Positions 13,904 through 27,874 of a stretch of 50,585 bases of DNA are shown here, one piece after another (position 1 is the first letter of the stretch; every line of letters begins with the position of its first letter). Under the pieces are notes generated by a model, which searched no databases, had not been told where the DNA came from, and saw nothing but the letters and a program-made list of their open reading frames with translations. Source of the DNA: an uncultured Clostridia bacterium (GTDB lineage Bacteria > Bacillota > Clostridia > Oscillospirales > QAMX01). The stretch is taken from assembly GCA_944376195.1 (NCBI GenBank), contig CALWBW010000013.1, positions 1-50,585 of the forward strand, given 5' to 3'. A program made the position numbers and the translations under genes.

Positions 13904-13979
13904 GCTGTTGTAGCTCAGTAGGCAGAGCACATCCTTGGTAAGGATGAGGTCACCGGTTCGAATCCGGTCAACAGCTCCA
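13904..13979 (+). tRNA. tRNA-Thr (anticodon GGT), integration target
   Basis: This is a 76-nt cloverleaf with encoded CCA. Acceptor GCTGTTG pairs with CAACAGC. Anticodon stem CATCC/GGATG encloses TTGGTAA, giving GGT. Bases from 13935 on belong to the 46-bp attL repeat, so the element supplies or restores the 3' half and the gene stays intact. Confidence 0.96.
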
Positions 13980-13980
13980 T
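13935..13980 (+). repeat. attL: left 46-bp repeat, inside tRNA-Thr
   Basis: It runs from the anticodon loop (TTGGTAAGG) through the T arm, the acceptor strand and CCA plus one T. It is identical to 27829-27874, and the flanks diverge immediately on both sides. Confidence 0.95.
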
Positions 13981-13983
13981 TTT

Positions 13984-14018
13984 AAGCACTCAAACTTGAG
14001 GGTTTGAGTGCTTTTTCT
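13984..14018 (+). terminator. Element-supplied terminator for tRNA-Thr
   Basis: AAGCACTCAAAC (13984-13995) pairs with GTTTGAGTGCTT (14002-14013) over 6 nt, followed by a T-run. It lies just inside attL, so it came with the element and replaces the original terminator found beyond attR. Confidence 0.88.
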
Positions 14019-14160
14019 TGCTTTTTCTGAACTTTTTAAGGCAATTTGTATTTGGACCCATGACCTCCTACTCAATTTTCGGGGTGTTTTGCAAATGGAT
14101 TTGCAAATTTTCCGCGCTTCTATGTGCCTGAGACCATTGTGCCGCAACGGTTTGCGAGTT

Positions 14161-15216
14161 TTAGGCTGTGCAAATGCTTTGCAAATCGGAGGTGGTTTTG
14201 CCGCCATAGACACGATCAATAGCGGCTGTTGCGGTTGAGGTGTTGCCTCGGCCTTTGACATAGTGCTTCAAGGTCATCGCTGACGTGGTATGCCCTGCCG
14301 CATACTGCGCCAACTTAATATCATGGCTCTGATCGTAGAGGTCGGTTAAGACAGTTGTGCGGAAGCGTATGGGAGTAATCTTTTCAGTAAAGCCCGTGTC
14401 GGCTTGAATCCTCCAACACATACGCTTAACTTGCTGATACGATAAAGGCTTCTCACCGCCGAAAACAAACTCGCCTGATGCACCACGGACAAGGTAATCA
14501 ACAGCTATGTGTGACAACCCTATGTCCCTCTCGCTGGCCTCGGTTTTCGGCTTTTTGATCTCTGGCTGATTGCGGTTAGGATGGGTTACTGCCCTGCGGA
14601 TATGTAGCACCATGTTATCGGTGTCTATATCCTCCCATTTCAGTCCAAGCACTTCTTCCAGTCGTAGCGGGTGCAGGGCTTGTAAGGCCAGATAAGCCCG
14701 ATCTACGGGATTTTTAATATCACCGATATGCTGGATCAGATAACGCATTTGCTCCACGCTGTAAGTGTCAGTATACTTGCTTGCTGCCCCCGTGATCTTC
14801 AGCCGCTTTGACTTGAGCGGGTTCTTATCAATCAAGCCCTCTTCCAGTGCTGTATCAAGTATCATGTTCAATACTTGCTTTGCCTTCTGTTTAGTAGCTT
14901 TGGCTCCACTCATGCTATTAAAAAACCGTTGCACGTCATCCGTCTTAATATCCTCTACGGTAAACCCGTCAAAGAAGGGGAGCAAATGAAGTGTGAGCTG
15001 CCGCTTGTAGGTGGTAGCTGTGGCGGTCTCCACATTTGGAGCGGAGTAAGTGTTGTACCAATTCCAGGCGTATTCTGCGAAGTTGTGTTTCGGCTTGTTT
15101 TGCGAATCTCCACTAAGTAGCCTTGCCAGCTTGTCAGCGTATTCCTGCTCGGTGTTTGCGTGAATCCAACGCCGAGCACCGTTAATTATAATCGTGCGGT
15201 TGATTTTTGTTGCCAT
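14161..15216 (-). CDS. int: Tyrosine recombinase/integrase of the element
   Basis: This is a site-specific recombinase that inserts and excises the element. An N-terminal SAM-like core-binding domain (about residues 60-150 of the 351-residue form) is followed by the catalytic domain. Visible catalytic residues are Arg in LHPLRLEEVLGL, Lys in the beta-hairpin KKPKTEASERD, His in YAAGHTT and the nucleophile Tyr in LKHYVKG. The HxxR box reads IRFR, with Ile in place of His. ATG 15216 (ATKINRTIIINGARRW) has AGGAGG 11 nt upstream and fits related integrases. A longer form from TTG 15390, also preceded by AAGGAGG, is possible. It lies 180 bp from attL. Confidence 0.93.
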   Translation of the reverse strand: MATKINRTIIINGARRWIHANTEQEYADKLARLLSGDSQNKPKHNFAEYAWNWYNTYSAPNVETATATTYKRQLTLHLLPFFDGFTVEDIKTDDVQRFFNSMSGAKATKQKAKQVLNMILDTALEEGLIDKNPLKSKRLKITGAASKYTDTYSVEQMRYLIQHIGDIKNPVDRAYLALQALHPLRLEEVLGLKWEDIDTDNMVLHIRRAVTHPNRNQPEIKKPKTEASERDIGLSHIAVDYLVRGASGEFVFGGEKPLSYQQVKRMCWRIQADTGFTEKITPIRFRTTVLTDLYDQSHDIKLAQYAAGHTTSAMTLKHYVKGRGNTSTATAAIDRVYGGKTTSDLQSICTA

Positions 15217-15673
15217 TTCCGAAAAATCCTCCTGAAATGGCACACAACCAGATTGATTTATGTAATTCTCAAGGTGCTGCGATTCCAATTTTAGCATAGA
15301 ATCGAAATCGTAGCAACCTCTGGATGTATCATGGAAAAGCCCTGTGCGGTCATAGTAGCCGACAATGGCTCCGTTAAATAATCTCTGCAATAGGTAAAAT
15401 TTCCTCCTTCAGTTCATAAGTTTTCCACCTTTCTTGATCTTGTTAGCGTCTATAAATCTTGTTTACTTGGTGGTTACTTTTTATAGTAAGCCCGGCAAAT
15501 GCCCAGGCGAATAATCTTGTTCGGCGTGTTGTCTTGTTCTGTTTCCTTGATCTTTTAACTGTTCTACTCGAAATATCATCGGAATTTTTCTCGATCCGAT
15601 GACATAAAATAGGGGGATTTTATGCCATCAAATCACCGCAAAACGCCATGCTAATGTGCATTTTCCGATGAAC
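15217..15673. other. Region upstream of int, no confident gene
   Basis: This 457-bp stretch may include a 5' extension of int (to 15390). It holds four direct repeats of RTCTTGTT (15437, 15456, 15514, 15531) and an inverted repeat CATAAAAT/ATTTTATG (15603-15610 and 15617-15624). No excisionase gene was found. These may be regulatory or recombinase arm sites. Confidence 0.5.
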
Positions 15674-16156
15674 TTACGATGAATACTTTTTTCTCTTTTT
15701 ATTGTATTGACTGAATCTCTCAAATCCGGGTAAACTTGCACACATATTGTCAGAAGGTATCATAATAAAATATCTGAATCGGGGTGACATTCCTTCAACA
15801 TAGCTTTCAAGGCACTTAACCTTGACGAATATTTTTTCGCACATTTTGGCGTGCTGCTTGTTAAGGTCTTTTACAACACATCCTATATCTCGCTGACTAA
15901 TAAGCCACCGAGAATCATGAATGACTTCTGGCACAAAGAAAACATAGTTTTTCAGGTCAATTGCTTGAAGATGCTGCCTTAGATGTACCATAGCTATATA
16001 CTTGTTTTTCTTTTTGCTAAATGCCATAACAGCGTCAGTAGGACTGTCTGATAGTTTATATTCATCAATCCAACTGTGCGTAATCTTTCTGCCTTCCAGA
16101 TGACTTGTGATAATGTCGCAACTTGCCCGGAGCTGCATAGTGCTGTTTGATTGCAT
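15674..16156 (-). CDS. Hypothetical protein, 160 aa
   Basis: I do not recognise this family. It is basic and soluble, with no signal or membrane helix, and has a Lys-rich C-terminus (YNKKRKKYSS) and several cysteines (RASCD, IGCVV, AKMCEK, VKCLES). It starts at ATG 16156 after AAGGAGG at a good spacing, so it is translated. It follows the helicase gene on the same strand, separated by 180 bp of stem-loops, and could assist it or be independent. Confidence 0.6.
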   Translation of the reverse strand: MQSNSTMQLRASCDIITSHLEGRKITHSWIDEYKLSDSPTDAVMAFSKKKNKYIAMVHLRQHLQAIDLKNYVFFVPEVIHDSRWLISQRDIGCVVKDLNKQHAKMCEKIFVKVKCLESYVEGMSPRFRYFIMIPSDNMCASLPGFERFSQYNKKRKKYSS

Positions 16157-16191
16157 AGATCAACCTCCTTATTAATTGTTGTTATATTTGA

Positions 16192-16245
16192 GCATTGCGG
16201 ATGCAATGCGAAACTGCGAAGGCAATTCGCTGTAAAGCGATTGCC
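16192..16245 (-). repeat. Tandem stem-loops upstream of the 160-aa gene
   Basis: GCATTGC (16192-16198) pairs with GCAATGC (16203-16209). GGCAATTCGC (16221-16230) pairs with GCGATTGCC (16237-16245) with one bulged base. They lie in the leader of the 160-aa gene. Confidence 0.5.
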
Positions 16246-16291
16246 AAGCAGATTCATGCAGAGTTACACTGATAAGAATGTGGGGATTTTG

Positions 16292-16320
16292 GGGGGTGTC
16301 TTATAATAGAGGACACCCCC
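16292..16320 (-). terminator. Hairpin after the helicase gene
   Basis: GGGGGTGTC (16292-16300) pairs with GACACCCCC (16312-16320). The - strand lacks a clear T-run after the stem, so termination is likely only partial. Confidence 0.5.
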
Positions 16321-16336
16321 TATTTTCTCCACACTA

Positions 16337-17842
16337 TTACGCCTTTAGAATCGTCCAAACTGAACTATAATCTTTCCTGATACCATCTATCACTTTGGTT
16401 TTGCGGCGGGAAATAATTATGTACGGTAAATTCTCAGATGCAAGGTAATCATTTAGGGAAACAAGGCTGTGTTGTAGCTTCCCTTTGTAATCCTTTAATC
16501 CGATCTTCTCTATTACAGGCTTACGATCCTTGGCATTGAGCATATCTACTCCCACCATAGAATCTAAATAATCAATCAGAGATTCTTTCTTTGTTGAAGT
16601 GGTCTGGTATAAGTATATCCCTGTATTTTCATTATAGAAACCAAACCATCGAGCAAGATATTTATCATATCCGAATGGTTCCTTCAACATCTCAGGGAAC
16701 AGGTCAAGGGCATAGTATTCCAGTCGAGTAACCTTGGCTTCGTTTCTCTGCTTGATATAGAGCAGATTTCCAACGGAGTCACATCCAACAGGAACATTTA
16801 TAATTGCGCCATTGATGTTATTTTGCCGCTCATTTTCAATATGGTATTCCAATTCATCAGTGTCCTTCTGGATAATAGTTTTGATCATACCATTCATTTG
16901 ATGAATAATCCTATTAATGTCAGAATTGCTGCGTCCACGAATAAAAAGGTCAATATGATCTTCCGAATTTACAGGCCGTTTGCGTCCCACACATTGAATT
17001 ACGGATTCAGGCTCTACAACATCAACCACAATGGTATCCAGCAAATTATCTTTTAAAGTAAAACCACTGTCCAATGCTGTTGTTGTTATCAAGATATTCG
17101 CATCGAACTTTTCATCTTCAATAATTGCATTAATAAGGTTTTCGTCCATCAAGTGTTTATGTTCTTTGTTATATCTGGAACATGAGAAAACCATATTGTT
17201 TTTGAATTTCTTATATAATTCTGCTGCCGTTTTTCCGCTTTGAATGAAAAAGACTGCCTTTTTCCCTTTGCTGATCACATCAGCCGCCAAAGTTTCTAAC
17301 TGCTCCGTGTCATAGAAAAAAGTCAAATGATCTATATAGCCATAGTCATAGGGAGTTGTAATTGGAGCATGGGCAATAAGAACTTTTTTGAACAAATAGT
17401 TATAGAACGCTCCTACTGTTGCAGACATAAAAATTTTAACTGCATGATCTTGTCCGAGAATCCAATCAAAACTAATGTCCGTATTGTTATTAAAACCTCC
17501 ATCGGAAATGAAATAATGGCATTCATCAGCCACAATGTAATCATAGCTGCCCACTGCTTGCCCGTGCTGAACTGAACTTTCTAATGCCTGATATGTCATC
17601 AGGCGAAGTGTACTCTCTTTACCGCTAAACTCCCTCAGTAGTTGCTCCTTTGTTCGTGTACGCTGGATCAAATATAGGCAAGTTGCGCCATTCTTCTTGA
17701 GATAGTCATATAGATTGTGTGTAACCCAATATGTTTTCCCTTGCCCTGTTTGCGCCTTAATTACTACGGGCTTTTGCGGAAGCCATTCTGCAATTCTTTC
17801 TTCTGTAATGACATTATTGATTTTTTCCTGTATAATTACCAC
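16337..17842 (-). CDS. DEAD/DEAH-box (DECH) superfamily 2 helicase
   Basis: This is an ATP-dependent nucleic-acid helicase or translocase. Motif I is AQTGQGKT, motif II is DECH, and motif III is MSAT. Motif VI-like QCVGRKRP contains an Arg arginine-finger candidate. The C-terminal 200 residues match nothing I recognise. At 501 residues it resembles helicases of clostridial phage-like elements rather than a RecG/RecQ-type enzyme, and no nuclease motif is seen. The start is GTG 17842 with a purine-rich AAAGAAG directly upstream, a weak site. It follows the XRE gene with a 20-nt gap, so both are probably made from the XRE-controlled promoter at 18511-18539. Confidence 0.8.
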   Translation of the reverse strand: MVIIQEKINNVITEERIAEWLPQKPVVIKAQTGQGKTYWVTHNLYDYLKKNGATCLYLIQRTRTKEQLLREFSGKESTLRLMTYQALESSVQHGQAVGSYDYIVADECHYFISDGGFNNNTDISFDWILGQDHAVKIFMSATVGAFYNYLFKKVLIAHAPITTPYDYGYIDHLTFFYDTEQLETLAADVISKGKKAVFFIQSGKTAAELYKKFKNNMVFSCSRYNKEHKHLMDENLINAIIEDEKFDANILITTTALDSGFTLKDNLLDTIVVDVVEPESVIQCVGRKRPVNSEDHIDLFIRGRSNSDINRIIHQMNGMIKTIIQKDTDELEYHIENERQNNINGAIINVPVGCDSVGNLLYIKQRNEAKVTRLEYYALDLFPEMLKEPFGYDKYLARWFGFYNENTGIYLYQTTSTKKESLIDYLDSMVGVDMLNAKDRKPVIEKIGLKDYKGKLQHSLVSLNDYLASENLPYIIISRRKTKVIDGIRKDYSSVWTILKA

Positions 17843-17862
17843 CTTCTTTTTTGTTGTGTCCT

Positions 17863-18465
17863 TTAATATAAATCCCCATCATGCACCGCTTTGAAATATT
17901 CACATTCCTGAGCGTTCTCTATGGCGTTATCCAGCAATTCGTTAACATTCTTTTTCAGCGAAACCAAAAGGTTAGTCCGACTATGTTCTGAAGCTGCAAT
18001 ATCGAAGGAACGAACCATTGCATATAAAACAGGCCGCAGGGCATCACATGACACAATATCCATAATTTTGTTGAACACTGCCGTTTCTCCATCAATAAAG
18101 GCTATCAGATCTTCAAACTCAATAAACTCTCTGCCTTTTCCTTTGAGATAGTAATCAATTCTGCTAATTGTGTTTCTCTCATTTTTAAGAGCTGCTTCGT
18201 GTTGGGAAAACAAAAATACTTCTTTAGACTCTTGTTTTTCCGATTGTAGTAGAGCATCAATTTCCTGTTTATTTTCGTCTGTAATCTCCCCTAAAAGACG
18301 CTCTGGAACACCAAAAATCTGCGACATTTCTGCTAATCTACTTCCGGGAATTGCACAAGTACCATGTTCCCATTGTGAAATTGTTTGCCTTGTAATTCCC
18401 ATTCGTTTACCCAGCGTATCCAAACTCATACCGTGGGCTTTGCGAATATATTGCAATCCGTTCAT
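17863..18465 (-). CDS. XRE-family transcriptional regulator (200 aa)
   Basis: An N-terminal lambda-repressor-type helix-turn-helix (LDTLGKRMGITRQTISQWEHG, residues about 12-32) is followed by a longer C-terminal region of unknown fold. ATG 18465 has AAAGGGG 8 nt upstream and begins NGLQYIRKAHGMS as such proteins do. Two TGACA-N7-TGTCA operators straddle its own promoter, implying autoregulation. It heads the leftward helicase transcript and is a good candidate for the element's lysogeny-style switch. No peptidase motif for self-cleavage was noticed. Confidence 0.85.
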   Translation of the reverse strand: MNGLQYIRKAHGMSLDTLGKRMGITRQTISQWEHGTCAIPGSRLAEMSQIFGVPERLLGEITDENKQEIDALLQSEKQESKEVFLFSQHEAALKNERNTISRIDYYLKGKGREFIEFEDLIAFIDGETAVFNKIMDIVSCDALRPVLYAMVRSFDIAASEHSRTNLLVSLKKNVNELLDNAIENAQECEYFKAVHDGDLY

Positions 18466-18483
18466 GACTAAAACCCCTTTACC

Positions 18484-18500
18484 TGACATTTGATTTGTAA
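18484..18500. promoter_or_regulatory. XRE operator O1
   Basis: TGACA-N7-TGTAA is one mismatch from a perfect inverted repeat. It lies just downstream of the transcription start of the XRE promoter. Confidence 0.6.
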
Positions 18501-18510
18501 GGTTGATTAC

Positions 18511-18539
18511 ATCATAGCACCTGACATTTTGTTTGTCAA
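18511..18539 (-). promoter_or_regulatory. Consensus promoter of the XRE-helicase unit
   Basis: On the - strand, TTGACA (18534-18539), 17 bp, then TATGAT (18511-18516). Confidence 0.85.
18522..18538. promoter_or_regulatory. XRE operator O2
   Basis: A perfect TGACA-N7-TGTCA overlaps the -35 box of the XRE promoter. The start lies 38 bp from O1. Confidence 0.65.
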
Positions 18540-18583
18540 GTAGATTGCGTAATTTTTTCTCTTATTGTTTTTCCAACATTGAA

Positions 18584-18620
18584 CGAAAAAACGCCCTGCT
18601 CTGTATGGAGCAAGGCGGCT
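18584..18620 (-). terminator. Terminator of the leftward J-domain/unknown block
   Basis: CGCC-TGCTC pairs with GAGCA-GGCG (about 18592-18616) with one mismatch. The - strand continues into TTTTTT. It separates this block from the XRE promoter. Confidence 0.8.
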
Positions 18621-18638
18621 TCATTGCGTTTTAGATTC

Positions 18639-18815
18639 TCACACTTCAACAATTGCGCCGATCAGAGTTGCAATGAGCACGACCCCACCAAACGCCATAA
18701 TTACATATTCAATCCAATGCGGTTTTCCAATGTATCTTTTCTTGCTCTTATAGCCAGAACGCTTTTCATCGGCGCACTCTTTAAATAAGGCAAGCGCAGT
18801 AACAATAGACCACAT
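18639..18815 (-). CDS. Small membrane protein, 58 aa
   Basis: The C-terminal half is one membrane helix (about residues 37-56, EYVIMAFGGVVLIATLIGAI), preceded by a basic stretch (KSKKRYIGKPH). ATG 18815 lies 2 nt after the stop of the upstream gene and 9 nt after GAGGGG, so translation is coupled. A longer frame from TTG 18842 overlaps the upstream gene and is less likely. Function is unknown. Confidence 0.6.
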   Translation of the reverse strand: MWSIVTALALFKECADEKRSGYKSKKRYIGKPHWIEYVIMAFGGVVLIATLIGAIVEV

Positions 18816-18817
18816 AC

Positions 18818-19441
18818 CTACCATCCCCTCATCGTTTTCCAATAGTCCTCAAACCGATTTTCCATCTTGTTATTCATAAACTCTCTTGCCTCTGGAATGG
18901 TCATCACTTGAGAAGGTACATAGCCATCCTGCCCGAAGGGAATACCAATGGTCACTTTTCCAGCGTAGAACAGGTTTCTAATTTCCTGCGGCATTTGCTC
19001 ATACATGGAAGGTCTGTAATAATTTCCGCTGCTGTTACGATGGACAATGTATTTTTCCACATCAGCAAGTTTCAAATAAAGGTCTGCATACTTGCCGCTT
19101 GCAGTAGGAACAATCTTATAATCAAAGCCGTCCAGCTTGCTTTTCTGCAATGCCTGATCCGTAATGGGCAGTTCAAAGGTCAGCGCATAGGGGAAGTATC
19201 CTTCTTCCAGTAAAGTCAGCTTTTCCAGTGCCTCCCGCCACTGGTGATCCTTACCGCTGGTAGTTCCAACTGCACCGAACAGCGTAAACTTATCCTGCTG
19301 GAATCTGCGCTGGTCATGGAAGAAATTCTTCCGCATGGTTTCTTTATCGTTCATCATACGGCTTGCCTCCGCTATTGCGGCTTGATGATTAATCTTCTCG
19401 CCGCCGATAGTCAACAGGAGATAGATGGACTCACACAACAT
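18818..19441 (-). CDS. Hypothetical protein, 207 aa
   Basis: I do not recognise this protein. It is soluble, begins LCESIYLLLTIGGEKINHQ and contains charged helical segments (QRRFQQDKFTLFGAVG) and an aromatic C-terminus (ENRFEDYWKTMRGW). ATG 19441 has AGGTGG 8 nt upstream; an upstream in-frame ATG at 19489 lacks a site. It sits in the same leftward unit as the 235-aa and J-domain proteins. Confidence 0.65.
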   Translation of the reverse strand: MLCESIYLLLTIGGEKINHQAAIAEASRMMNDKETMRKNFFHDQRRFQQDKFTLFGAVGTTSGKDHQWREALEKLTLLEEGYFPYALTFELPITDQALQKSKLDGFDYKIVPTASGKYADLYLKLADVEKYIVHRNSSGNYYRPSMYEQMPQEIRNLFYAGKVTIGIPFGQDGYVPSQVMTIPEAREFMNNKMENRFEDYWKTMRGW

Positions 19442-19500
19442 CTTTCTACCACCTATTATCTCATATCCTGTGATATAGTCAATTTGCACCTTCAGCCGCC

Positions 19501-20208
19501 TTAAACCGCCGCTGTGACCATCTGCGCCAACCTATACAGGGCTTCGGCTTGCCTGTTTTCATTCTCTGCTCCATCCAGCGCAGTAAACCAACCTTCATAA
19601 AATCTTTTCTCTGCTATGGGCTGTTCGGTTGCGTAGTCCCATACTCCCGCATAGATGGTGTTATCCGCAAAGCGGAAATAAACCGTTCTCGGAGTCTGGC
19701 ATTTTGTGCCAAGCCTACCACAATAGACATTAATAAACTTCTTAATTTTCTGCTCTTGAATGCCTGTTAGCCGTCCCAGCTTCCGAAGGTCAAGCACCAC
19801 AAGCGGGTTTCCGCTCTCATCAATGTGGCTGCGCTCGTAGTCAATCAGGCTTTCCAGCGTGTCAGGATCGGCAAGCAGATTCTCCATGTTGCTAAAATGT
19901 GCGTTGTAGTTGTCAGGATTGGCAAGGTCTTTTTCCAGTCCTTCTACTGTATAGCTGCCGCCGTTAGGTAGATGGAACACAATACAGTTGTCTGCGGTTG
20001 CGGTCACTCTATCATATCCAGCCGCATAAATAGGCGTTGCGAACTGCCGTTCAACCTTGACAATTTCGCCTTCAAACTGCGGTTCAAGCCCTGTTGCAAA
20101 GAATACTTTTCTTCCGTCCTCTGTGTTCTCTGTGCTGATTTTGTACCAATTATAACCAGACAGAAGAGCGCAAGCCTTCAAAACGTCCATATTTACAGTA
20201 TTTTTCAT
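19501..20208 (-). CDS. Hypothetical protein, 235 aa
   Basis: I do not recognise this protein. It has no membrane segment. Features include FRFADNTIYAGVWDYATEQP and a C-terminal helix (ENENRQAEALYRLAQMV). AAAGGAG precedes ATG 20208 by 9 nt. It is 60 bp from the neighbouring genes on each side in the leftward unit, suggesting a common transcript and perhaps a complex with the J-domain protein. Confidence 0.65.
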   Translation of the reverse strand: MKNTVNMDVLKACALLSGYNWYKISTENTEDGRKVFFATGLEPQFEGEIVKVERQFATPIYAAGYDRVTATADNCIVFHLPNGGSYTVEGLEKDLANPDNYNAHFSNMENLLADPDTLESLIDYERSHIDESGNPLVVLDLRKLGRLTGIQEQKIKKFINVYCGRLGTKCQTPRTVYFRFADNTIYAGVWDYATEQPIAEKRFYEGWFTALDGAENENRQAEALYRLAQMVTAAV

Positions 20209-20258
20209 TTCCGTAATCTCCTTTTGTTGTGGGAGGGGTTGCCCCCTCCCGTATTGCC

Positions 20259-20750
20259 TTAAACTATCCGTACTGCAAGCGGCGATCCGCTTCTAACCGT
20301 TTCGCTACCGTATAGTTCACGGATTTCATCAAGGCTATAATTTCGGCTGTTCCGCTTACGGTATGGGGTTGAATGATAATACCATGCGGATTTGCTTTGA
20401 CTCCAACGGAAGGATAGATGCTTCAAAACATCTTTGTGCTTTTTAGTTTCACCGCTTACCCATATCCAAGACCCGCAAATTTCAATGTGAAGGCCAGCAA
20501 GGTTTATCAGGCGATTAATAATTTCACGAAAATCTTCAGCCTGTTCACCGGTTTCCTCTTTTGCCGTGTATGTTGCACCGCTGGCGGCTCTATGCCTGTT
20601 TTTTAACTGTTGGAATAGATTATCATACTCGCTGTTGATCTCCTGCATATCGGCTTTGCTGCCGCCTCTGTCGGGGTGGTGATCCATTGCAAGGCGTTTA
20701 TATTGTGCCTTCAGATCTTCAATGCACTGCGGATTGTTAAACCATTTCAT
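20259..20750 (-). CDS. J-domain protein (DnaJ-like), 163 aa
   Basis: The N-terminal 60 residues form a J domain with the diagnostic HPD loop (YKRLAMDHHPDRGGSKADMQEI), which stimulates the ATPase of Hsp70 (DnaK). There is no Gly/Phe region or zinc finger, so it is not DnaJ itself. The C-terminal 100 residues (GLHIEICGSWIWVSGETKKHKD, then FRWSQSKSAWYYH) are a separate domain that I recall from plasmid and integrative-element proteins. Mobile elements use such J proteins to recruit DnaK for remodelling complexes. AAGGAG is well placed before ATG 20750. Confidence 0.85.
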   Translation of the reverse strand: MKWFNNPQCIEDLKAQYKRLAMDHHPDRGGSKADMQEINSEYDNLFQQLKNRHRAASGATYTAKEETGEQAEDFREIINRLINLAGLHIEICGSWIWVSGETKKHKDVLKHLSFRWSQSKSAWYYHSTPYRKRNSRNYSLDEIRELYGSETVRSGSPLAVRIV

Positions 20751-20881: not shown

Positions 20882-21157
20882 TTAAGCAAGGGTAAAACGG
20901 CGGCTTGTGCTTGCTTTTGTAAATGCGGCTGCAATATCGGGCATTGCCTTTTTGAGTGCCGCCGTGTCAAGTCGATTTGTAGTAACTGTTTTCCATGTCA
21001 CTTTCCAGTCTGCGCCTGTCAGCATGTCAACCTGTCTTGTGGTCATCTCCGCTTTGATGGAGTCCTGCAAGGTTTCGATCTCTGCGGCGATTTCGTCAGC
21101 CATGCGGCGAAGCTCCCGCAGATCATTAATTTTACTGTCCATCTCGTTAATGCTCAT
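20882..21157 (-). CDS. Coiled-coil phage/ICE-type protein, 91 aa
   Basis: The N-terminal half is a heptad-rich helix (MDSKINDLRELRRMADEIAA, continuing through EIETLQDSIKAEMT). The C-terminus has a TWKTVTTNRLDTAALKKA pattern ending in a basic TSRRFTLA. This layout recurs in clostridial phage and integrative-element proteins near recombination genes, but its role is not established. AAAGGAGG lies 8 nt before ATG 21157. It is the second gene after the operator-controlled divergent promoter. Confidence 0.75.
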   Translation of the reverse strand: MSINEMDSKINDLRELRRMADEIAAEIETLQDSIKAEMTTRQVDMLTGADWKVTWKTVTTNRLDTAALKKAMPDIAAAFTKASTSRRFTLA

Positions 21158-21303: not shown

Positions 21304-21352
21304 GTTTGACTTCCTTTCCTTTTTGGTTAGGTGTTTCCTTTAGCTTGATTAC

Positions 21353-21381
21353 ATTATAACAGTTATGTACATAACATGCAA
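21353..21381 (-). promoter_or_regulatory. Leftward promoter of the J-domain unit
   Basis: On the - strand, TTGCAT (21376-21381), 17 bp, then TATAAT (21353-21358). The first TTATGTACATAA operator fills the spacer. Confidence 0.8.
21362..21375. promoter_or_regulatory. Palindromic operator 1 (TTATGTACATAA)
   Basis: GTTATGTACATAAC is a perfect 14-bp palindrome lying between the -35 and -10 of the leftward promoter. Confidence 0.75.
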
Positions 21382-21400
21382 GTGGTAGAATAGACAAAAG

Positions 21401-21412
21401 TTATGTACATAA
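21401..21412. promoter_or_regulatory. Palindromic operator 2 (TTATGTACATAA)
   Basis: A perfect 12-bp copy, centred 38 bp from operator 1, midway between the divergent promoters. Confidence 0.75.
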
Positions 21413-21426
21413 TTTGTGCAAATTTG

Positions 21427-21438
21427 TTATGTACATAT
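21427..21438. promoter_or_regulatory. Palindromic operator 3
   Basis: TTATGTACATAT differs from the others by one base, is centred 26 bp from operator 2, and overlaps the -35 region of the rightward promoter. Confidence 0.7.
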
Positions 21439-21458
21439 CTTTTCGGGTGTGTTATAAT
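21430..21458 (+). promoter_or_regulatory. Rightward promoter of the ribbon-helix-helix gene
   Basis: A perfect TATAAT (21453-21458) with a weak TGTACA at the -35 position 17 bp upstream, inside operator 3. Confidence 0.6.
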
Positions 21459-21485
21459 TCGATTGCGTAAATGGGAGGTGGTACA

Positions 21486-21680
21486 ATGCCGATGACTGAC
21501 GAGCGCAAGCAATATTTATATGACTACCAAAAGAAGAAACTAAAGCGGATACCGCTGGATGTTCCGATAGAGGTTTATGAGAAGATAAGGCAACACGCAG
21601 AAGAAAAGAGCGAGAGCGTAAGCGGATTTATAAAACGGGCAATCGCCGAAACAATGGAGAGAGAGCAGACCCGCAAATAA
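21486..21680 (+). CDS. Ribbon-helix-helix (CopG/Arc-like) DNA-binding protein, 64 aa
   Basis: A basic beta-strand-like segment (KRIPLDVPIEVYEKIRQHAEE) followed by SVSGFIKRAIAETMERE gives the strand-helix-helix layout of CopG/Arc repressors. ATG 21486 follows GGGAGGTGG. Three near-identical palindromes lie directly upstream over both divergent promoters, so it is the obvious candidate to bind them and repress both units. No toxin gene is adjacent, so an antitoxin role is not supported. Confidence 0.75.
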   Translation: MPMTDERKQYLYDYQKKKLKRIPLDVPIEVYEKIRQHAEEKSESVSGFIKRAIAETMEREQTRK

Positions 21681-21697
21681 CAAGAAATACAAGAATA

Positions 21698-21738
21698 AAA
21701 ATTACAGGGTAGTTCCCGCTGCCCTGCAATTTTAAAAA
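21698..21738 (+). terminator. Probable terminator of the ribbon-helix-helix gene
   Basis: AAATT-CAGGG pairs with CCCTG-AATTT around a TAGTTCCCGCTG centre, ending in a short T-run. Confidence 0.5.
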
Positions 21739-21745
21739 CATATAG

Positions 21746-21851
21746 TTCGTATTATGTAGATAATACGAATAGTAAAACCCTGTATTTACTGGACTTTTCG
21801 TGTTTGCTTGGATTTATACGAACTTTTGACCTTGAAAATACGAACTTTTGA
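21746..21851. repeat. Cluster of TTCGTAT/ATACGAA sites before the short recombinase
   Basis: TTCGTATTAT-GTAG-ATAATACGAA is a perfect 10-4-10 inverted repeat (21746-21769). Two direct copies of ATACGAACTTTTGA follow at 21816-21829 and 21838-21851, and another TTCGT lies at 21798. The inverted core plus direct arm-like repeats resemble a tyrosine-recombinase crossover site with accessory sites. Operator function is the alternative. Confidence 0.6.
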
Positions 21852-21865
21852 TGATGGAGGACGGC

Positions 21866-22429
21866 ATGAACAAGAAAACACTTGCCTTGACCGCAGAGCA
21901 GTATGAAGAGATAATAAAGACGATGAAAAGCGGCTTTAGTGGTTGCCGACCAAATGAGCGTATTGCAACTGCGCTTGTGCTGGAAGCTAACTTAGGCTTG
22001 CGGATCAGCGATATAATTAAGTTGCGGTTGTGTGATATTGTGCGGGATGGTGACAGATACCGCCTTGAAATTACGGAACGAAAAACAGGCAAAAGCAGAG
22101 TGTTTACAGTTCCGCTTGTAATCCAGCAATACATAGAGAATTATTGCTTGCGTAATGGCATAGGAAAGAAAGAAGTTATATTCCCCATTACGGATAGACA
22201 GGTGCAAAAACAGCTTGCTATTGTTTGTGATTACTTAGGATATGACGGGATCGGGACACATAGCTTCAGAAAGTACTACGCAACAGAGATTTATAAAAAT
22301 AACAATTACGACATAACGTTGGTGCAAAGACTTTTACAGCATAGTTCTGCTGCTATTACGCAAAGATATATCGGCATAGAGGATCGGCGCATTGAGGAAG
22401 CTATAACTAACCATGTTTGTTTAATTTAG
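21866..22429 (+). CDS. Short tyrosine recombinase (catalytic domain only)
   Basis: All signature residues are present: Arg in LGLRISDIIKLR, Lys in TERKTGKSR, HxxR in THSFRKYYAT, and His/Tyr in LLQHSSAAITQRYIG. At 187 residues it lacks the usual N-terminal core-binding domain, resembling the short recombinases of the TnpA/Fim or resolvase-like group. ATG 21866 follows GGAGG. It lies directly after the TTCGTAT/ATACGAA cluster. Possible jobs are dimer resolution of the excised circle, inversion or secondary integration. It is not obviously redundant with int, which differs in size and motif. Confidence 0.88.
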   Translation: MNKKTLALTAEQYEEIIKTMKSGFSGCRPNERIATALVLEANLGLRISDIIKLRLCDIVRDGDRYRLEITERKTGKSRVFTVPLVIQQYIENYCLRNGIGKKEVIFPITDRQVQKQLAIVCDYLGYDGIGTHSFRKYYATEIYKNNNYDITLVQRLLQHSSAAITQRYIGIEDRRIEEAITNHVCLI

Positions 22430-22436
22430 ATTATTG

Positions 22437-22471
22437 CCCCTGCAACTTGTGTGTTGCAGGGGTGTTTTCTT
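22437..22471 (+). terminator. Terminator of the short recombinase gene
   Basis: CCCCTGCAAC (22437-22446) pairs with GTTGCAGGGG (22453-22462), followed by TGTTTTCTTT. Confidence 0.88.
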
Positions 22472-22629
22472 TCCCCGGAGGGCGGGGGGATGGGAATAAA
22501 GGGGGGTACTTTCCACTTTTTTGTGGTTTTTGTTTTTGTCCAGCGGCTAAAGTACATCCGCTCAACATACGGAGGGATTTTTTACACCGATAGAAAAATC
22601 GGATACAGCGTACAACCGCCATACCCGAT

Positions 22630-22989
22630 TTAATCTTCAGACAACCTATTAATATGGTTGAGGATCAGCAACTTATCGCTGTCCTTCAACTTGCGTAATC
22701 CTCTGACTGCTTCGCTAATCAATGCGGGGTCAGCAATACCATCGTCAAAAAACTGCGCCGGGGTGATCTCAAAATAGTCACAAATCTCAAATAGCCCTTC
22801 AACTGAAGGAAGGCTCTTTCCGCTGGAAATATTTTGGATATAACCACGACTATGCCCTAAATCAAGTGACATTTGGTATTCCGAGACACCTTTTTGTATC
22901 CTGAGCTGCGTAATGCGGTCACGCAAAAACTGCTTATATATTGCTCTCACCACCCTTGCGACTATTCTATTACATTTTTCCGTTGTCAT
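22630..22989 (-). CDS. XRE-family regulator, 119 aa
   Basis: The helix-turn-helix region is ITQLRIQKGVSEYQMSLDLG, then HSRGYIQNISSGKSLPS, followed by FEICDYFEITPAQFFDDG, which is typical of XRE proteins. The C-terminal helix (ISEAVRGLRKLKDSDKLLIL) is likely for dimerisation. The ATG at 22989 has no clear ribosome-binding site; GTG or TTG codons 13-24 residues in may be the true start. It is transcribed away from the zinc-ribbon operon and may regulate it. Confidence 0.8.
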   Translation of the reverse strand: MTTEKCNRIVARVVRAIYKQFLRDRITQLRIQKGVSEYQMSLDLGHSRGYIQNISSGKSLPSVEGLFEICDYFEITPAQFFDDGIADPALISEAVRGLRKLKDSDKLLILNHINRLSED

Positions 22990-23015
22990 ACACGGCGGTT
23001 AAATGCTACTTCTAA

Positions 23016-23044
23016 TTGAAATGCACACGGAAAAATGCTATAAT
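23016..23044 (+). promoter_or_regulatory. Promoter of the zinc-ribbon/lipoprotein unit
   Basis: TTGAAA (23016-23021), 17 bp, and a perfect TATAAT (23039-23044). Confidence 0.8.
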
Positions 23045-23109
23045 TATATTTGGGTGTTAAGTAGTGGGGATGCATTCACGCCCAAATATGATATAGAAGA
23101 GGGATAGTT

Positions 23110-23808
23110 ATGAGTCTAATAAGTTGTCCTGAATGTGGACAAGAAATTTCTGACAAGGCAAAAAAATGCATTCACTGTGGGAAAATTCTAATAGAAGAAG
23201 AACTTCCGAAGAAATTTTGCGCTGAATGCGGGAAAGAAATACCTGCGGACTCAAAAGAATGTATGTTCTGCGGTTACCCAGTGGAGCAAGAAAAACCCGA
23301 GAATCCTGCTGTTGCACAAATCACAGAAAAGGTTAGGAAGAATAAAAAGCCGATAGTTATTGTTGCGGCTATTGCTGTAGTAGCTGTTATTATCGGATTG
23401 ATTGCGAACTTTGCGGGATCAGCTCTTAATGAGGATGAACAGCTTGCTTATCAAAATGCTGTTCAAATGCAACGTATGATGCGAGACCCAGATTCTTTTA
23501 GACTGTATGATGAAATGTTTCTGCTTAGGTACATTAACGATGACGGGGAGAATGAATATACTTATACTATTTTTAAATACGGCGGTGCAAACGGTTACGG
23601 TGCTATTACTACCGATGAAGCAATTTTCAAAGACGGGGAATATATCATGGACTATGCCGATGAACCAGACGAAGATGATCCAGATTATTTAGAGCAACTT
23701 GGCGCAAAAATGGATATATTATTGTGGCAACTTTCAGGAGATAGTGAGACTTGGCAAATGGTTGAAATTGACATTGATAAAATAAAGGATAAAATGGGGT
23801 TAGAATAA
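23110..23808 (+). CDS. Double zinc-ribbon single-pass membrane protein, 232 aa
   Basis: Two N-terminal zinc ribbons show CxxC pairs: CPECGQEIS with CIHCGK, and CAECGKEIP with CMFCGY (residues 6-56). One membrane helix follows (about 78-100, PIVIVAAIAVVAVIIGLIAN), then a C-terminal domain with an acidic patch (DEPDEDDPDYLEQLG). By topology the ribbons are cytoplasmic and the rest external. It starts the four-gene cargo unit and its stop overlaps the next start (TAATG). Function is unknown; such proteins often sense or assemble at the membrane. Confidence 0.8.
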   Translation: MSLISCPECGQEISDKAKKCIHCGKILIEEELPKKFCAECGKEIPADSKECMFCGYPVEQEKPENPAVAQITEKVRKNKKPIVIVAAIAVVAVIIGLIANFAGSALNEDEQLAYQNAVQMQRMMRDPDSFRLYDEMFLLRYINDDGENEYTYTIFKYGGANGYGAITTDEAIFKDGEYIMDYADEPDEDDPDYLEQLGAKMDILLWQLSGDSETWQMVEIDIDKIKDKMGLE

Positions 23809-24461
23809 TGCGTTGTGGTAACTGTGGCCACAGAGTAACGCCAGACGCTACATTTTGTACTCACTGTGGAAGTAAATTGGACACGAACAATCAGAATGAG
23901 GGAAATGCTGGAATATCCCCCAAAATAACATCTATATTTTCGTTACATAAGAAGTGCATAATCATTGGACTGATAGTGGTTTGCTTTATCGGATATTTCT
24001 TTACCATTAAATGTAGGGCAGGGTTTTGTCTGTTGCCGAGTTGCTTTGAGGGAGATTATTGTGTTCTGCACACTTGCCAAAGAGACAGTTGCTTGAATAA
24101 AAAAGCAACGAATAGCAACTATTGTTATACCCATTCTCCTACTACTTCTCATGGCTACACTTACACACCAGAATCAGCAGAGGATGTTCTTGAATTTTCC
24201 GACTTTGAAATAACACATAACAGTTCGTATACGATCTGTACAGGGACTATCACGAATACCGGGCGCAAAACTTACACGTTTGTTGAGGTCAAAGGAAAAT
24301 TCCAAGATTCGGCAGGTATCGTTGTAGATACGGATTGGACATATGCTGTTGGTTCGGAAGGATTAGCACCGGGCGAATCGACAACATTCAGGCTATCGGT
24401 TGAGAAAGATAGGAGTATTACGAAATGCACTATGGAGATTTTAGATTACGAAAAAGAGTAG
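23808..24461 (+). CDS. Zinc-ribbon membrane protein with Cys-rich segment and FxLYD domain, 217 aa
   Basis: The N-terminus is one zinc ribbon (CGNCGHRVT with CTHCGSK). A membrane helix follows (about 46-65, KCIIIGLIVVCFIGYFF), then a Cys-rich segment with eight cysteines (CLLPSC, YCVLHTCQRDSC, YCYTH), which would lie outside the membrane. The C-terminal 85 residues match FxLYD-type beta domains (FSDFEITHNSSYTICTGTI, VEVKGKFQDSAGIVVDTDW). The start codon overlaps the previous stop, so the two are made together. Confidence 0.8.
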   Translation: MRCGNCGHRVTPDATFCTHCGSKLDTNNQNEGNAGISPKITSIFSLHKKCIIIGLIVVCFIGYFFTIKCRAGFCLLPSCFEGDYCVLHTCQRDSCLNKKATNSNYCYTHSPTTSHGYTYTPESAEDVLEFSDFEITHNSSYTICTGTITNTGRKTYTFVEVKGKFQDSAGIVVDTDWTYAVGSEGLAPGESTTFRLSVEKDRSITKCTMEILDYEKE

Positions 24462-24488
24462 GAGTTATCTGTAAATGAGGGACTATTC

Positions 24489-25100
24489 ATGAAAAAAATA
24501 AAAGTATCACTGTTGCTATTGTTATGTATTCTCGTTCTTGTTTCATGTAGGGACTCTGGCAGTACAAATGAATCAGTATATGCCGATTATCAATTTCAGG
24601 CTACGATGGACGATAATGATGAGATTCTGATTTTGGCTAAATCGGAAAGTGCATTAAATGAATTTATTCAGGAAATTGTTTCAAATGAAATGAATTCAGA
24701 TTTTTCAGATTTAGATCAAGTTTATATTCATGAATCCAGTGATGCATTGGCTGTTGAGAGTGCAGAATTCCAAAACTGTGACCCAAGTGACCCATATGAT
24801 GTATACTCCTTCGTATATATCAAAGTCCGCAACAATTCTGGTCAATCAGGTACACTTCTGAACCTAAATGTGGATTTTATTGATGAAAATGGCGATATTA
24901 TATACTCGTCCTATCCGCAATATGGTAGCATTGTCGAAGATGGACAGGCTTGTACTATGGACGTGATATTTGAAGGAATTCCATACGGCATCCGTGTCGC
25001 AAGTGCTGATATTACGCCTATGTCCAACGGATATACATCTGATGAGCGCATTGAAGTATTTTTTGAAACTCCATTTATCGCCATTAATCCAGGTCACTGA
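24489..25100 (+). CDS. Lipoprotein with FxLYD-like domain, 203 aa
   Basis: The signal peptide ends in a lipobox (LVSC, about residue 20). The C-terminal 100 residues (VYSFVYIKVRNNSGQSGTLL, then VDFIDENGDIIYSSYPQYGS) have the FxLYD-like pattern also present in the preceding gene. GAGGGAC precedes ATG 24489. It is third in the unit. Confidence 0.78.
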   Translation: MKKIKVSLLLLLCILVLVSCRDSGSTNESVYADYQFQATMDDNDEILILAKSESALNEFIQEIVSNEMNSDFSDLDQVYIHESSDALAVESAEFQNCDPSDPYDVYSFVYIKVRNNSGQSGTLLNLNVDFIDENGDIIYSSYPQYGSIVEDGQACTMDVIFEGIPYGIRVASADITPMSNGYTSDERIEVFFETPFIAINPGH

Positions 25101-25138
25101 TTCCTTAGCTGAACAATCTCCAAGAGAGGATGTAAAAA

Positions 25139-25549
25139 TTGAAGCCTAATAAAGTACTGCTGCTATCAACAATGCTGCTCCTGAGCATTGTTCTTTCTGC
25201 TTGTGGTTCTGGTTCTGGTAACGACATAGTAGGCACATGGACAATAACTGAATATGATAACGGAGAAGAAATTTTTCCTGCCGATGAAATTGCAACTTTA
25301 TATGGCGAAACAGCGGGAGAGTTTAACAAATTATCTATGATTTTTACCAGTTCTGGCAATGTCACACTTACAAGACCTGATATGCAAGGCGGTACTTCTG
25401 ATCTCAAACTTGCGTACAGCGTTCAGGACGGATATGTGGAGGTCTATGATCCTGATAATACAAGCAACTTTGAGTTGTATGAATATCAGGATAATGAGAT
25501 ACGCATAGAGGTTAGCAGTGGCTTGACAGCTATATTTGAAAAGCAATAG
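25139..25549 (+). CDS. Small lipoprotein with lipocalin-like domain, 136 aa
   Basis: The lipobox LSAC lies near residue 22 after a strong hydrophobic signal. The mature part (VGTWTITEYDNGEEIFPA, ending EIRIEVSSGLTAIFEK) has the repeated beta pattern of lipocalin-like lipoprotein domains. The start is TTG 25139, 9 nt after GAGAGG. It is last in the unit and ends at a terminator. Confidence 0.75.
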   Translation: MKPNKVLLLSTMLLLSIVLSACGSGSGNDIVGTWTITEYDNGEEIFPADEIATLYGETAGEFNKLSMIFTSSGNVTLTRPDMQGGTSDLKLAYSVQDGYVEVYDPDNTSNFELYEYQDNEIRIEVSSGLTAIFEKQ

Positions 25550-25556
25550 GGACTAA

Positions 25557-25595
25557 GGGCAACCGCCGATCAACGGCGGCTGTCCTTTCCTTTTC
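25557..25595. terminator. Terminator between convergent cargo genes
   Basis: CCGCCG-ATCAA-CGGCGG (25563-25579), extended by GGGCA/TGTCC and followed by TTTCCTTTTC on the + strand. Confidence 0.75.
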
Positions 25596-25598
25596 GTC

Positions 25599-27251
25599 TT
25601 ATCGGTACTGTTCGAGCACTCCATTTACAAACTCTACCAACTGCCCACGGGTTATCAGGGAATCGGGGTCAAACTCTGCACTGTCCGCAATCCAGCCCAG
25701 CGCAACGGCGGTTGCTACGGCATCCTGCGCCCAACCGCTATACTGGATATGCTGTAACTCGCAATCCTGCGCTGCCACAAAACGGCTCATGACGGTTATA
25801 ATATGCCCCCATGTCAACGGCGCATCAGGATCGTAGCTGTCATTACCCACGCCGCACACAATCCCAGCATTGGCAATCGTAGTGATATAACGGCAATGCC
25901 ACGCATCAGGCGCAACGTCCACAAACACGGTATCTGCGCTATCATATCGGGCAATGGAGTCCGCATCCAGCAACCGATATATGATGGTTGCCATCTGCGC
26001 CCGTGTTAGATTGTCATCCAAATGTAACTGCCCATCGCCGTAGCCCAAAAGAACAACCGAGCGGGAGGCATCAATTACGGCATCGCCGCAGACAAGAGCG
26101 GGAGTGGGTTCTTCTTCGGGGTCGGGTGCGGGAGTAGGCAATACTGGCCTTGTGGGACGTGTAGGACGGTTGACAACAGGCGGGGTATAGTCATCCTCGC
26201 CGTCATTGTCAGGCTCGTCCTGCGGCGGTGCAGGTGTTGTAGGCGGGTTTTCATTGTCGGCGGGAGTATCTTCCCCTTCGCCATCTTCAGGCTGCTGTGG
26301 TGGCTCCGTAGGTGTTTCGGCGGGGGTGTCTGCTTCCTGTTCTTCGTCATCGGGAGAGGAAGAGGGTGCAAAGTATTCCGCTGACTGTTCCGTAGTCAAC
26401 CAAATCAGCCTTGCAGTGTCGGTATAATCGGCAAGTGGCAATGCAATCTTATCACCTGTGGACTCTTCGTAGTATCCTGCATCGTCTTGTGTTTCATCGA
26501 TAATGCTGAGTGTACCTTCTGAAACAATATCTTGTCCAATAGTGTCGGTGCTTTTATTTCCAGAATAAGCACATCCACTAATTCCCATTGTACCGCTATT
26601 GTATATGCCGCCACCCACGCCAGCGGTATTGTTGGTAAAAGTTGAATCAATCACATAACACTCGCCGCTGTTATGTATCCCAGCACCTTGCATGATGGTG
26701 GTATTTCCCATGAAAGAGCATCTTTCAACAGTAACTACGGAAGAAGCAGAAATCATCAATGCAACATCTTTTCCGTACTGAAAACTACAATCGCTAATCT
26801 GAGCAGTACCGCTTGTAATGTTTACCAGATTGTAATAATAATTTTCGCTGCCAACAAAATTACAGTCAGCAATGGTTATCTCTCCACCTTCATAATTGCT
26901 GATTAGCACTGCAACAGCATTTGTAAAGAGGTTAAACCCGGACAATTGACTTCCTTTATTCATTTCGATTAATACTCCAACAGAATTGTCAATAGGTATT
27001 AAAGTAATATATTTATCTGTAATAAGGGATACATTTTTCAGTTCGATACATTTGGATATAGCAATAGTATCTCCACTCTCTGCGGCGGCAACGGCGGCTT
27101 GTAGTTCTTCCAGCGTTCCAACCGTGACAGTTGATTGCTGTTCATGCGCTTGCTGCTGTCCGCTATCATCTATACTGTCTGCCGCTATTGCGCTTGTTCC
27201 ACCAGAGAACAAAAGGGCGCAAACAAGCAAAACACAAAATATCCGCTTCAT
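25599..27251 (-). CDS. Secreted SLH protein with beta-helix and Pro-rich stalk, 550 aa
   Basis: A signal peptide (residues 1-25) precedes a region with right-handed beta-helix repeats (about 60-280; ISDCSFQYGKDVALMIS, SGTMGISGCAYSGNKS). A long Pro/Glu/Asp/Thr-rich stalk follows (about 300-385), then two to three SLH domains (NLTRAQMATIIYRLL, APDAWHCRYITTIANAG, SLITRGQLVEFVNGVL). It is thus an extracellular wall-anchored protein with a protruding stalk and possible carbohydrate- or surface-binding head. Its ATG overlaps the stop of the XRE gene at 27248-27250 (ATGA), so both are co-translated. Close neighbours are four membrane or lipoprotein genes facing it. Confidence 0.88.
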   Translation of the reverse strand: MKRIFCVLLVCALLFSGGTSAIAADSIDDSGQQQAHEQQSTVTVGTLEELQAAVAAAESGDTIAISKCIELKNVSLITDKYITLIPIDNSVGVLIEMNKGSQLSGFNLFTNAVAVLISNYEGGEITIADCNFVGSENYYYNLVNITSGTAQISDCSFQYGKDVALMISASSVVTVERCSFMGNTTIMQGAGIHNSGECYVIDSTFTNNTAGVGGGIYNSGTMGISGCAYSGNKSTDTIGQDIVSEGTLSIIDETQDDAGYYEESTGDKIALPLADYTDTARLIWLTTEQSAEYFAPSSSPDDEEQEADTPAETPTEPPQQPEDGEGEDTPADNENPPTTPAPPQDEPDNDGEDDYTPPVVNRPTRPTRPVLPTPAPDPEEEPTPALVCGDAVIDASRSVVLLGYGDGQLHLDDNLTRAQMATIIYRLLDADSIARYDSADTVFVDVAPDAWHCRYITTIANAGIVCGVGNDSYDPDAPLTWGHIITVMSRFVAAQDCELQHIQYSGWAQDAVATAVALGWIADSAEFDPDSLITRGQLVEFVNGVLEQYR

Positions 27252-27562
27252 CTTCCTGTTTCCTCCAATTTCCTATTCTTCTCTCGCATACTGTCCACCA
27301 ACTCACACACCAGCTTTATTTCTGCCGCTGTGAGTCCTGATAAATCCAGTGACCGATTATTGGAGCGGCCTAACAGGTAATCGGTGCTGACGTTGAACAC
27401 TTCCGCATACCTGATAAGCACATCAAACGATGGTTGTCGTACATCGTTCTCATACATACTGATACTGGATTTTTCAACATGGACAAGTTTGGCAAGCTGG
27501 TCTTGTCGTAGGTCTTTTTCAAGCCGCAACTGCCGTAGCCGCTGTGACAAAGCTACTATCAT
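27248..27562 (-). CDS. XRE-family regulator coupled to the SLH protein
   Basis: The helix-turn-helix (QRLRQLRLEKDLRQDQLAKL, then EKSSISMYENDVRQPSFDVL) is followed by FNVSTDYLLGRSNNRSLDLS, typical of compact XRE proteins. ATG 27562 follows GGAGGTG by 8 nt; an upstream ATG at 27583 is less well placed. It is first in the transcript and overlaps the SLH gene by 4 nt, so it probably controls surface-protein production. Confidence 0.83.
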   Translation of the reverse strand: MIVALSQRLRQLRLEKDLRQDQLAKLVHVEKSSISMYENDVRQPSFDVLIRYAEVFNVSTDYLLGRSNNRSLDLSGLTAAEIKLVCELVDSMREKNRKLEETGR

Positions 27563-27828
27563 GTGCATCACCTCCGTATGCACAATGATAATTGTAGCAG
27601 TATTCCGTTGACAGGTGGTGACTTGCTCTTGCTAAAGAGTGAACGGGAATCCGTAAAAAAACCGCATGACCTTACAAAAAGGTCATACGGCGGCTATAAT
27701 GCAATGATTTCAATGCACGAAATTCATGCACTCAAATCACAGCAAATAGATATAAATGGCACCAGAAAACTACATAAATAATCTGATTGTGTGCCGAAAT
27801 GTTTGGCTTAATTTGATTTCCTTCGCCT

Positions 27829-27874
27829 TTGGTAAGGATGAGGTCACCGGTTCGAATCCGGTCAACAGCTCCAT
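27829..27874 (+). repeat. attR: right 46-bp repeat
   Basis: A perfect copy of 13935-13980, covering the tRNA-Thr 3' half. It is not preceded by a tRNA 5' half, so it is a remnant. Confidence 0.95.

Follow-up and report, generated by a model that had tools for sequence, protein, structure and literature searches.

The 13.9-kb stretch inserted at a tRNA-Thr gene of an uncultured Clostridia bacterium is, as judged from its sequence, a genuine mobile element that carries its own integrase. It lies in the analyzed DNA of 50,585 nucleotides (contig CALWBW010000013.1, hereafter the window), which is contig C13 in a source genome of 2.2 Mb and 83 contigs. The element appears to work like a helper-dependent integrative element, or a hitcher in the terms of PMC11389934, from which the name of this class is taken. 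The explanation that we prefer, and to which we give an even chance, is that of an intact integrative hitcher, a plasmid-like circle living in tRNA-Thr that is probably a phage satellite. An integrase, a repressor switch and a resolution system are present with no visible exit route; hitch-hiking is therefore probable, most likely in virus particles.

Integration site and gene content

The integration site comprises the following features (window coordinates throughout; aa, amino acids).

13904 to 13979, plus strand: intact tRNA-Thr(GGT) gene, the integration target (ARAGORN)
13935 to 13980, plus strand: attL, 46-bp direct repeat (repeat comparison)
14161 to 15216, minus strand: tyrosine integrase, 351 aa from ATG, in a frame open to 15390 (PF00589, 5e-18; phrog_1, 1e-46)
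27829 to 27874, plus strand: attR, 46-bp direct repeat identical to attL (repeat comparison)

The two attachment (att) repeats of 46 nt are 100% identical at a spacing of 13,894 bp, and attL forms the 3′ part of the tRNA-Thr gene, which is left whole. Given this length and identity, a chance origin is far too improbable, and a chance repeat was rejected as the explanation of the ends, the exact match being far beyond chance. The integrase gene adjoins attL; AGGAGG is found upstream of its ATG, and an alternative upstream TTG start would give a protein of 409 aa. The GC content falls from about 48–50% in the flanks to about 38–44% across much of the element. A preliminary description of this DNA had placed a 13.9-kb element with perfect 46-bp repeats in tRNA-Thr, with an integrase at one end, and both statements are borne out by the coordinates above. 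The comparison with genomes lacking the element, which it had proposed, succeeded on one side: G001, a genome of the same genus, keeps the order of ABC transporter, tRNA-Asp and tRNA-Thr, but a second tRNA-Thr comes next in place of the element. The right-flank genes lie rearranged on other contigs, and the base-exact empty site sought in G001 and the same-genus G002 was unreadable.

From attL, the minus strand encodes the tyrosine integrase, orf160, a helicase of superfamily SF2, an XRE-family regulator, orf223, orf235, a J-domain-like protein and orf91. These genes are followed by a ribbon-helix-helix (RHH) repressor and a 187-aa recombinase (plus strand), an XRE regulator (minus), two zinc-ribbon proteins and two putative lipoproteins (plus), and an S-layer-homology (SLH) protein with another XRE regulator (minus). 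In profile searches, the element proteins gave no matches to a relaxase, coupling protein or mating genes, none to a terminase, portal or capsid (Pfam and PHROGs), and, as a test for a prophage, none to head, packaging, tail or lysis genes. The absence of transfer and structural genes asserted by the preliminary description is supported by these searches, and neither the relaxase nor the terminase that it had named as contrary evidence was found in the element. Its statement that replication genes were also absent was too strong, since the SF2 helicase and a plasmid-type resolution module are present. No match in the element was obtained for a satellite primase (Pfam DUF3987/DUF5906 type) or for an AlpA-type regulator, the regulators being of the XRE and RHH types only, and no known plasmid Rep was recognized there. 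Profile searches revealed no transposase in the element, and its long end repeats are direct, not inverted. A terminase small subunit (TerS) or packaging-hijack gene had no Pfam or PHROGs match among the scanned proteins, of which the unassigned ones could conceal one.

Relatives, operators and resolution site

A family search with a four-sequence alignment of the J-domain-like protein, run once over about 85,000 genomes, found 23 loci, nearly all from Clostridia; against a phylum sample, this DnaJ-like protein gave matches at the J-domain level only. In a tree of 30 J-domain-like proteins, the 13 rows with orf91 at the locus (window included) clustered beyond shuffled labels and were separate from loci with a phage terminase. 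The rows nearest to the window were L058, then G339/L060 and L059, and a related element is also carried by Acutalibacter sp. 1XD8-33, an order-mate of the source genome. On these comparisons, the element is a member of a Clostridia family with a shared core, of which no description was found in the open literature (search not exhaustive).

The nearest relative, L058, is a contig of 14,324 bp whose gene order matches that of the window's element end to end (XRE-SLH, zinc-ribbon proteins, XRE119, resolvase, RHH, orf91, DnaJ-like, orf223 relative, XRE, helicase, recombinase), and its DnaJ-like protein is 88% identical to that of the window. L058 departs from the window in its SPbeta YonV-type helicase, which shows no sequence kinship to the window's helicase, and in having a large serine recombinase as integrase. 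Relatives with identical content but no repeat, which the preliminary description had regarded as contrary evidence, were therefore not represented by this locus, the nearest one having a different integrase. An exact terminal repeat of the contig, which would have pointed to a circle, was looked for and not found. L058 (JAUMVS010000023.1) is binned to Phoenicibacter congonensis (Actinomycetota), which is probably a binning error, or else a cross-phylum transfer.

Short forms were also found elsewhere. A second element in the source genome (C23:20929-30139, L052/L053; 9.2 kb) lies between groEL and a galE-like gene, with a 15-bp repeat on either side (C23:20929 and 30125), an integrase at one end and no tape-measure gene; it carries an RHH protein of the window type, and a Rep-like 302-aa protein replaces the helicase. 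L073, a 7.4-kb form at tRNA-Ser with 23-bp att repeats, an integrase at one end and no tape-measure gene, has fewer genes than any other member seen, namely resolvase, RHH, orf91, DnaJ-like, helicase and integrase. The search for att repeats of the G339 element gave chance-level matches only.

The core genes and the predicted switch that controls them are located as follows.

18818 to 19489, minus strand: orf223, function not assigned; relatives in three viral contigs, the own C23 element and L058 (similarity searches)
19501 to 20208, minus strand: orf235, conserved core protein, function not assigned (recurs in relatives)
20259 to 20750, minus strand: J-domain-like (DnaJ) core protein, 163 aa (phrog_15863, 4e-45; 23 genome loci)
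20882 to 21157, minus strand: orf91, core protein similar to the C-terminal portion of a family of phage exonucleases (phrog_434, 2e-13; recurs in relatives)
21353 to 21358, minus strand: TATAAT, the predicted –10 box for the orf91 operon, with 3 bp between it and the first operator (sequence; same layout in the own C23 and G339 elements)
21362 to 21438, no strand assigned: three TTATGTACATAA-type operators at 21362-21375, 21401-21412 and 21427-21438 (motif count; co-variation with the repressor)
21486 to 21680, plus strand: RHH repressor, 64 aa (weak RHH-type matches; 63–68% identity in the G339 and own C23 elements)

The three TTATGTACATAA copies lie between the divergent rhh and orf91 genes and overlap the orf91 promoter; the 11-mer TTATGTACATA, with at most one mismatch, had 8 matches in the window versus 0.40 expected. 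Three exact 10-bp operator cores were found in the own C23 element, and two cores with one degenerate copy in the G339 element, whose RHH protein is likewise of the window type. Different motifs occupy this position, upstream of the –10 box, in L058, L059 and L073, whose RHH proteins are of other types; the same holds for members in which an XRE-like protein fills the repressor slot. Since the operator type tracks the repressor type across relatives, a joint exchange is suggested, and repressor and operators seem to be swapped as a unit, like the immunity regions of temperate phages. As two related elements with one operator type occur in the same genome, cross-repression is directly testable.

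A candidate resolution site lies beyond the repressor gene.

21746 to 21769, no strand assigned: core recombination site TTCGTATTAT-GTAG-ATAATACGAA (10-4-10; sequence pattern)
21816 to 21851, no strand assigned: accessory direct repeats, two copies of ATACGAACTTTTGA at a distance of 22 bp (sequence pattern)
21866 to 22429, plus strand: small tyrosine recombinase of 187 aa that comprises just the catalytic domain; putative multimer resolvase (PF00589, 3e-18)

The core and the two ATACGAACTTTTGA repeats sit upstream of the recombinase gene. Upstream of the Clostridioides difficile pCd1_2 recombinase, 40% identical to that of the window, we found TTCGTATTTT-CTAT-AAAACACGAA with AATACGAACTTT/AACACGAACTTT 22 bp apart (L005, 3967-4085), and upstream of the Butyrivibrio pCY360 recombinase, which is 62% identical, TACGTAAAAT-AGAT-ATTTTACGTA with ATACGTA twice, again 22 bp apart (L102, 1272-1379). 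Across the whole window this layout occurs once, and 2000 shuffles of each of the three segments reproduced it 0, 1 and 0 times; these were simple base-composition shuffles of short AT-rich segments, in a test written after the pattern had been noticed in the window and pCd1_2. Relatives of the recombinase were found in 1699 plasmid records, and a serine resolvase occupies its slot in several other family members. The core-plus-two-repeats layout, found on these two unrelated plasmids, may be general for the many plasmids carrying this recombinase.

The TnpI site of Tn4430 lies immediately before the recombinase gene and combines a core, IR1-IR2, with the repeats DR1-DR2 (PMC7157771). The element shares with the TnpI/irs systems of Tn4430 and Tn5401 a tyrosine recombinase and, just upstream, a site with an inverted-repeat core and two direct repeats. 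However, its recombinase of 187 aa is a catalytic domain alone, the Tn3-family transposase and terminal inverted repeats are missing, and the module occurs in a tRNA-integrated element and on plasmids. pCd1_2 (9.5 kb) has a related recombinase, an identical site layout and an adjacent DEAD-type helicase, whereas it is a free circular plasmid, its helicase is distant, and neither an integrase-att arrangement nor an orf91-DnaJ core was seen on it. The recombinase is a putative multimer resolvase that would act at the core-plus-two-repeats site, and multimer resolution would fit best with an element that replicates as a circle.

Proposed mode of transfer and comparison with known elements

A tail tape-measure gene was found in at least nine core-sharing relatives: G339, L059, G173/L020 (L057/L020), L062, L063, L065, L066, L067 and L071 (PF10145 and phrog_4211 in G339; phmmer E values of 6e-8 or better in the others). 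The complete protein has 2318 aa. In the G339 element (L054/L055; G339:C50, about 56–81 kb), the gene directly precedes the large serine recombinase, after which a chromosomal-looking gene follows. This element also encodes a YonO-like RNA polymerase (L055:2633-5131, 832 aa, two-barrel type, phrog_8308, phrog_4291, motif GADFDSD), and a YonG-like protein, present in G339 and L059, has a relative in phage Sundance that precedes a DNA-packaging gene. When 91 open reading frames (ORFs) of nine elements (ten loci) were scanned, the matches listed (25 of the 30 Pfam families, 25 of the 60 PHROGs) included neither a relaxase nor a capsid, portal or terminase; the relatives were examined over stretches of about 20 kb or less, several tape-measure genes run off the end, and farther late genes are possible there. 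The open papers searched (not exhaustively) contained no description of an element with a tape-measure gene but without capsid or terminase. Because this gene occurs in at least nine relatives with no terminase or capsid seen, a phage helper is favored.

We propose the following course of events. On the firmest ground, that of the att structure, the integrase acts on attP (46 bp) and the 3′ end of the tRNA, and their recombination yields attL, attR and an intact tRNA. As comparison with relatives suggests, the RHH repressor would then silence the orf91-DnaJ-orf235-orf223 operon from the TTATGTACATAA operators. Derepression would lead to excision and to replication of the circle via the SF2 helicase; the J-domain protein might bring in host DnaK, a proposal based on the action of DnaJ and DnaK at plasmid and phage origins. 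The small tyrosine recombinase would, again by comparison, resolve multimers at its site. In the weakest step, the element would exit with the machinery of a helper, most likely a tailed phage. The SLH surface protein, the zinc-ribbon proteins and the lipoproteins would represent conversion cargo.

Of the two possibilities raised by the preliminary description, an island with a new transfer route gained no positive evidence, and a satellite mobilized by a helper became the leading reading through the core-sharing relatives, with their tape-measure, YonG-like (two) and YonO-like (one) genes and no terminase or capsid seen. Several points weigh against it. Excision, circle formation, replication and transfer are proposed from the sequence and none was observed, and the role of the helicase in replication is an assumption. 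No TerS, packaging site or matched, demonstrated helper was found, and the short members, which lack the tape-measure gene, are linked to phages by kinship alone. A search of six genomes or records for an SPbeta-type terminase, run without a positive control, found none. The source genome itself contains a cluster of ~9 kb (G000:C2:21445-30046, L092/L093) with matches to a terminase large subunit, a portal, a head protein (weak), internal-virion and fibre proteins, and a same-length terminase ORF (457-aa frame) occurs in G002. This cluster shows a past phage infection of the source genome; it looks incomplete, and no other phage genes were seen around it.

An extended form of the satellite reading, which we put forward tentatively and as less likely than not, is that the element is a stripped-down form of Clostridia satellites whose long members supply their own tape measure (sometimes also YonG-like and YonO-like proteins), take the other virion parts from a helper, and form immunity groups through joint repressor-operator exchange. 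If carriers do replace the tape measure of the helper phage, this would be a new way of using a virion. The comparisons delineate a concrete, testable family of gut Clostridia elements, probably helper-dependent, whose core is defined, whose repressor-operator switch can be read from the sequence and whose resolution site is mapped.

SPbeta-like phages share with the family the YonV-type helicase of L058 and the YonG-like, YonO-like and tape-measure genes of the long relatives, but the window's element has none of these and no head, portal or terminase genes. Phage-inducible chromosomal islands (PICIs) and their minimalist form (PICMIs) resemble it in size (7–20 kb), terminal integrase, direct-repeat att sites, repressor-type control and lack of virion genes. 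The PICMI model requires a satellite primase (PMC10803314). Assignment to either class was rejected, as primase, AlpA and TerS were not detected; the element differs further in its plasmid-type resolvase and site, its J-domain-like and SLH proteins, and in that no helper is known. Capsid-forming PICIs are likewise integrated and satellite-like, and some relatives found here have a few virion genes. However, the own capsid, portal and terminase of that class were found neither in the element nor among the families listed for its relatives, which have a tape measure and no capsid, portal or terminase in the examined stretches, the reverse of a capsid-forming PICI. An integrative and conjugative element, or a relaxase-bearing integrative mobilizable element, was rejected because relaxase, coupling protein and mating-pair genes gave no match in the profile searches.

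An integrative mobilizable element without its own relaxase (iOriT), for which a conjugative element in the same cell would supply relaxase and channel, acting on an internal origin of transfer (oriT), is unlikely. Such elements are also small, with an integrase and no transfer apparatus, and an integrase without relaxase or mating genes fits the class in PMC11389934. The recombinase module is common on plasmids, and the L066 relative adjoins genes resembling a conjugative element (read from sequence). The core genes and the tape-measure gene of the relatives nevertheless point to phages, the family differs from iOriT elements in its phage-related genes, and no relaxase was found in the element or the sampled relatives. 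Next in order, and improbable, is an integrative plasmid without dedicated transfer, which would replicate or stay put and spread by chance transduction or transformation. The plasmid-type resolution site and recombinase suit this view, as does the adjacency of helicase and recombinase on pCd1_2, but divergent relatives with swapped integrases and repressors in many Clostridia genomes suggest efficient spread, and the searches recognized no known plasmid Rep. A decayed prophage is highly improbable: early-region phage-type genes (phrog_15863, phrog_434) are present, late genes are absent and longer relatives hold a few of them, but the att repeats are still identical, the main ORFs open, the operators and resolution site conserved, and compact members, having att repeats or a comparable layout, recur in several genomes; this picture looks like selection on the small form.

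Remaining genes and neighboring observations

The other genes of the element are as follows.

15674 to 16156, minus strand: orf160, function not assigned, no relatives found (profile and similarity searches)
16337 to 17842, minus strand: SF2 helicase, 501 aa, likely replication helicase (PF04851/PF00270)
17863 to 18489, minus strand: XRE-family regulator, 208 aa (PF01381)
22630 to 22989, minus strand: XRE regulator, 119 aa, conserved (80%) in L058 and L059 (profile search and comparison)
23110 to 24461, plus strand: pair of zinc-ribbon proteins, 23110-23808 and 23808-24461, for which a membrane segment is predicted (PF13240)
24489 to 25549, plus strand: two putative lipoproteins, 24489-25100 and 25139-25549, the latter lipocalin-like (profile search; lipobox read from sequence)
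25599 to 27251, minus strand: SLH surface protein, 550 aa, with homologues in L058 and L059 and a partial one in G339/L060 (PF00395, 5e-14)
27248 to 27583, minus strand: XRE regulator that forms a pair with the SLH gene and is retained at the corresponding end of L058, L059 and G339 (profile search and comparison)

Zinc-ribbon proteins with a membrane segment were also found repeatedly in relatives. The AlphaFold model of orf223 was discarded (pLDDT 41). For orf235, no relaxase or terminase fold was recognized, all Foldseek matches being above E 0.001, and no relatives were found in phages. The SF2 helicase has distant relatives in phages and small circular plasmids; used as a search seed, it retrieved no relatives from viral contigs and no full-length one from 58 other genomes. 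One distantly related helicase is encoded by plasmid p4 of Sarcina sp. JB2 (L004, 13.7 kb), which is circular, is annotated with capsid, portal, head-closure, terminase and protease genes and no tail genes, and looks like a capsid-forming satellite or a phage-plasmid. Outside the element, positions 47624-49633 of the window form a single 669-aa frame in which, as read from the sequence, IspH (LytB) seems to be joined to repeats of the ribosomal protein S1 type.

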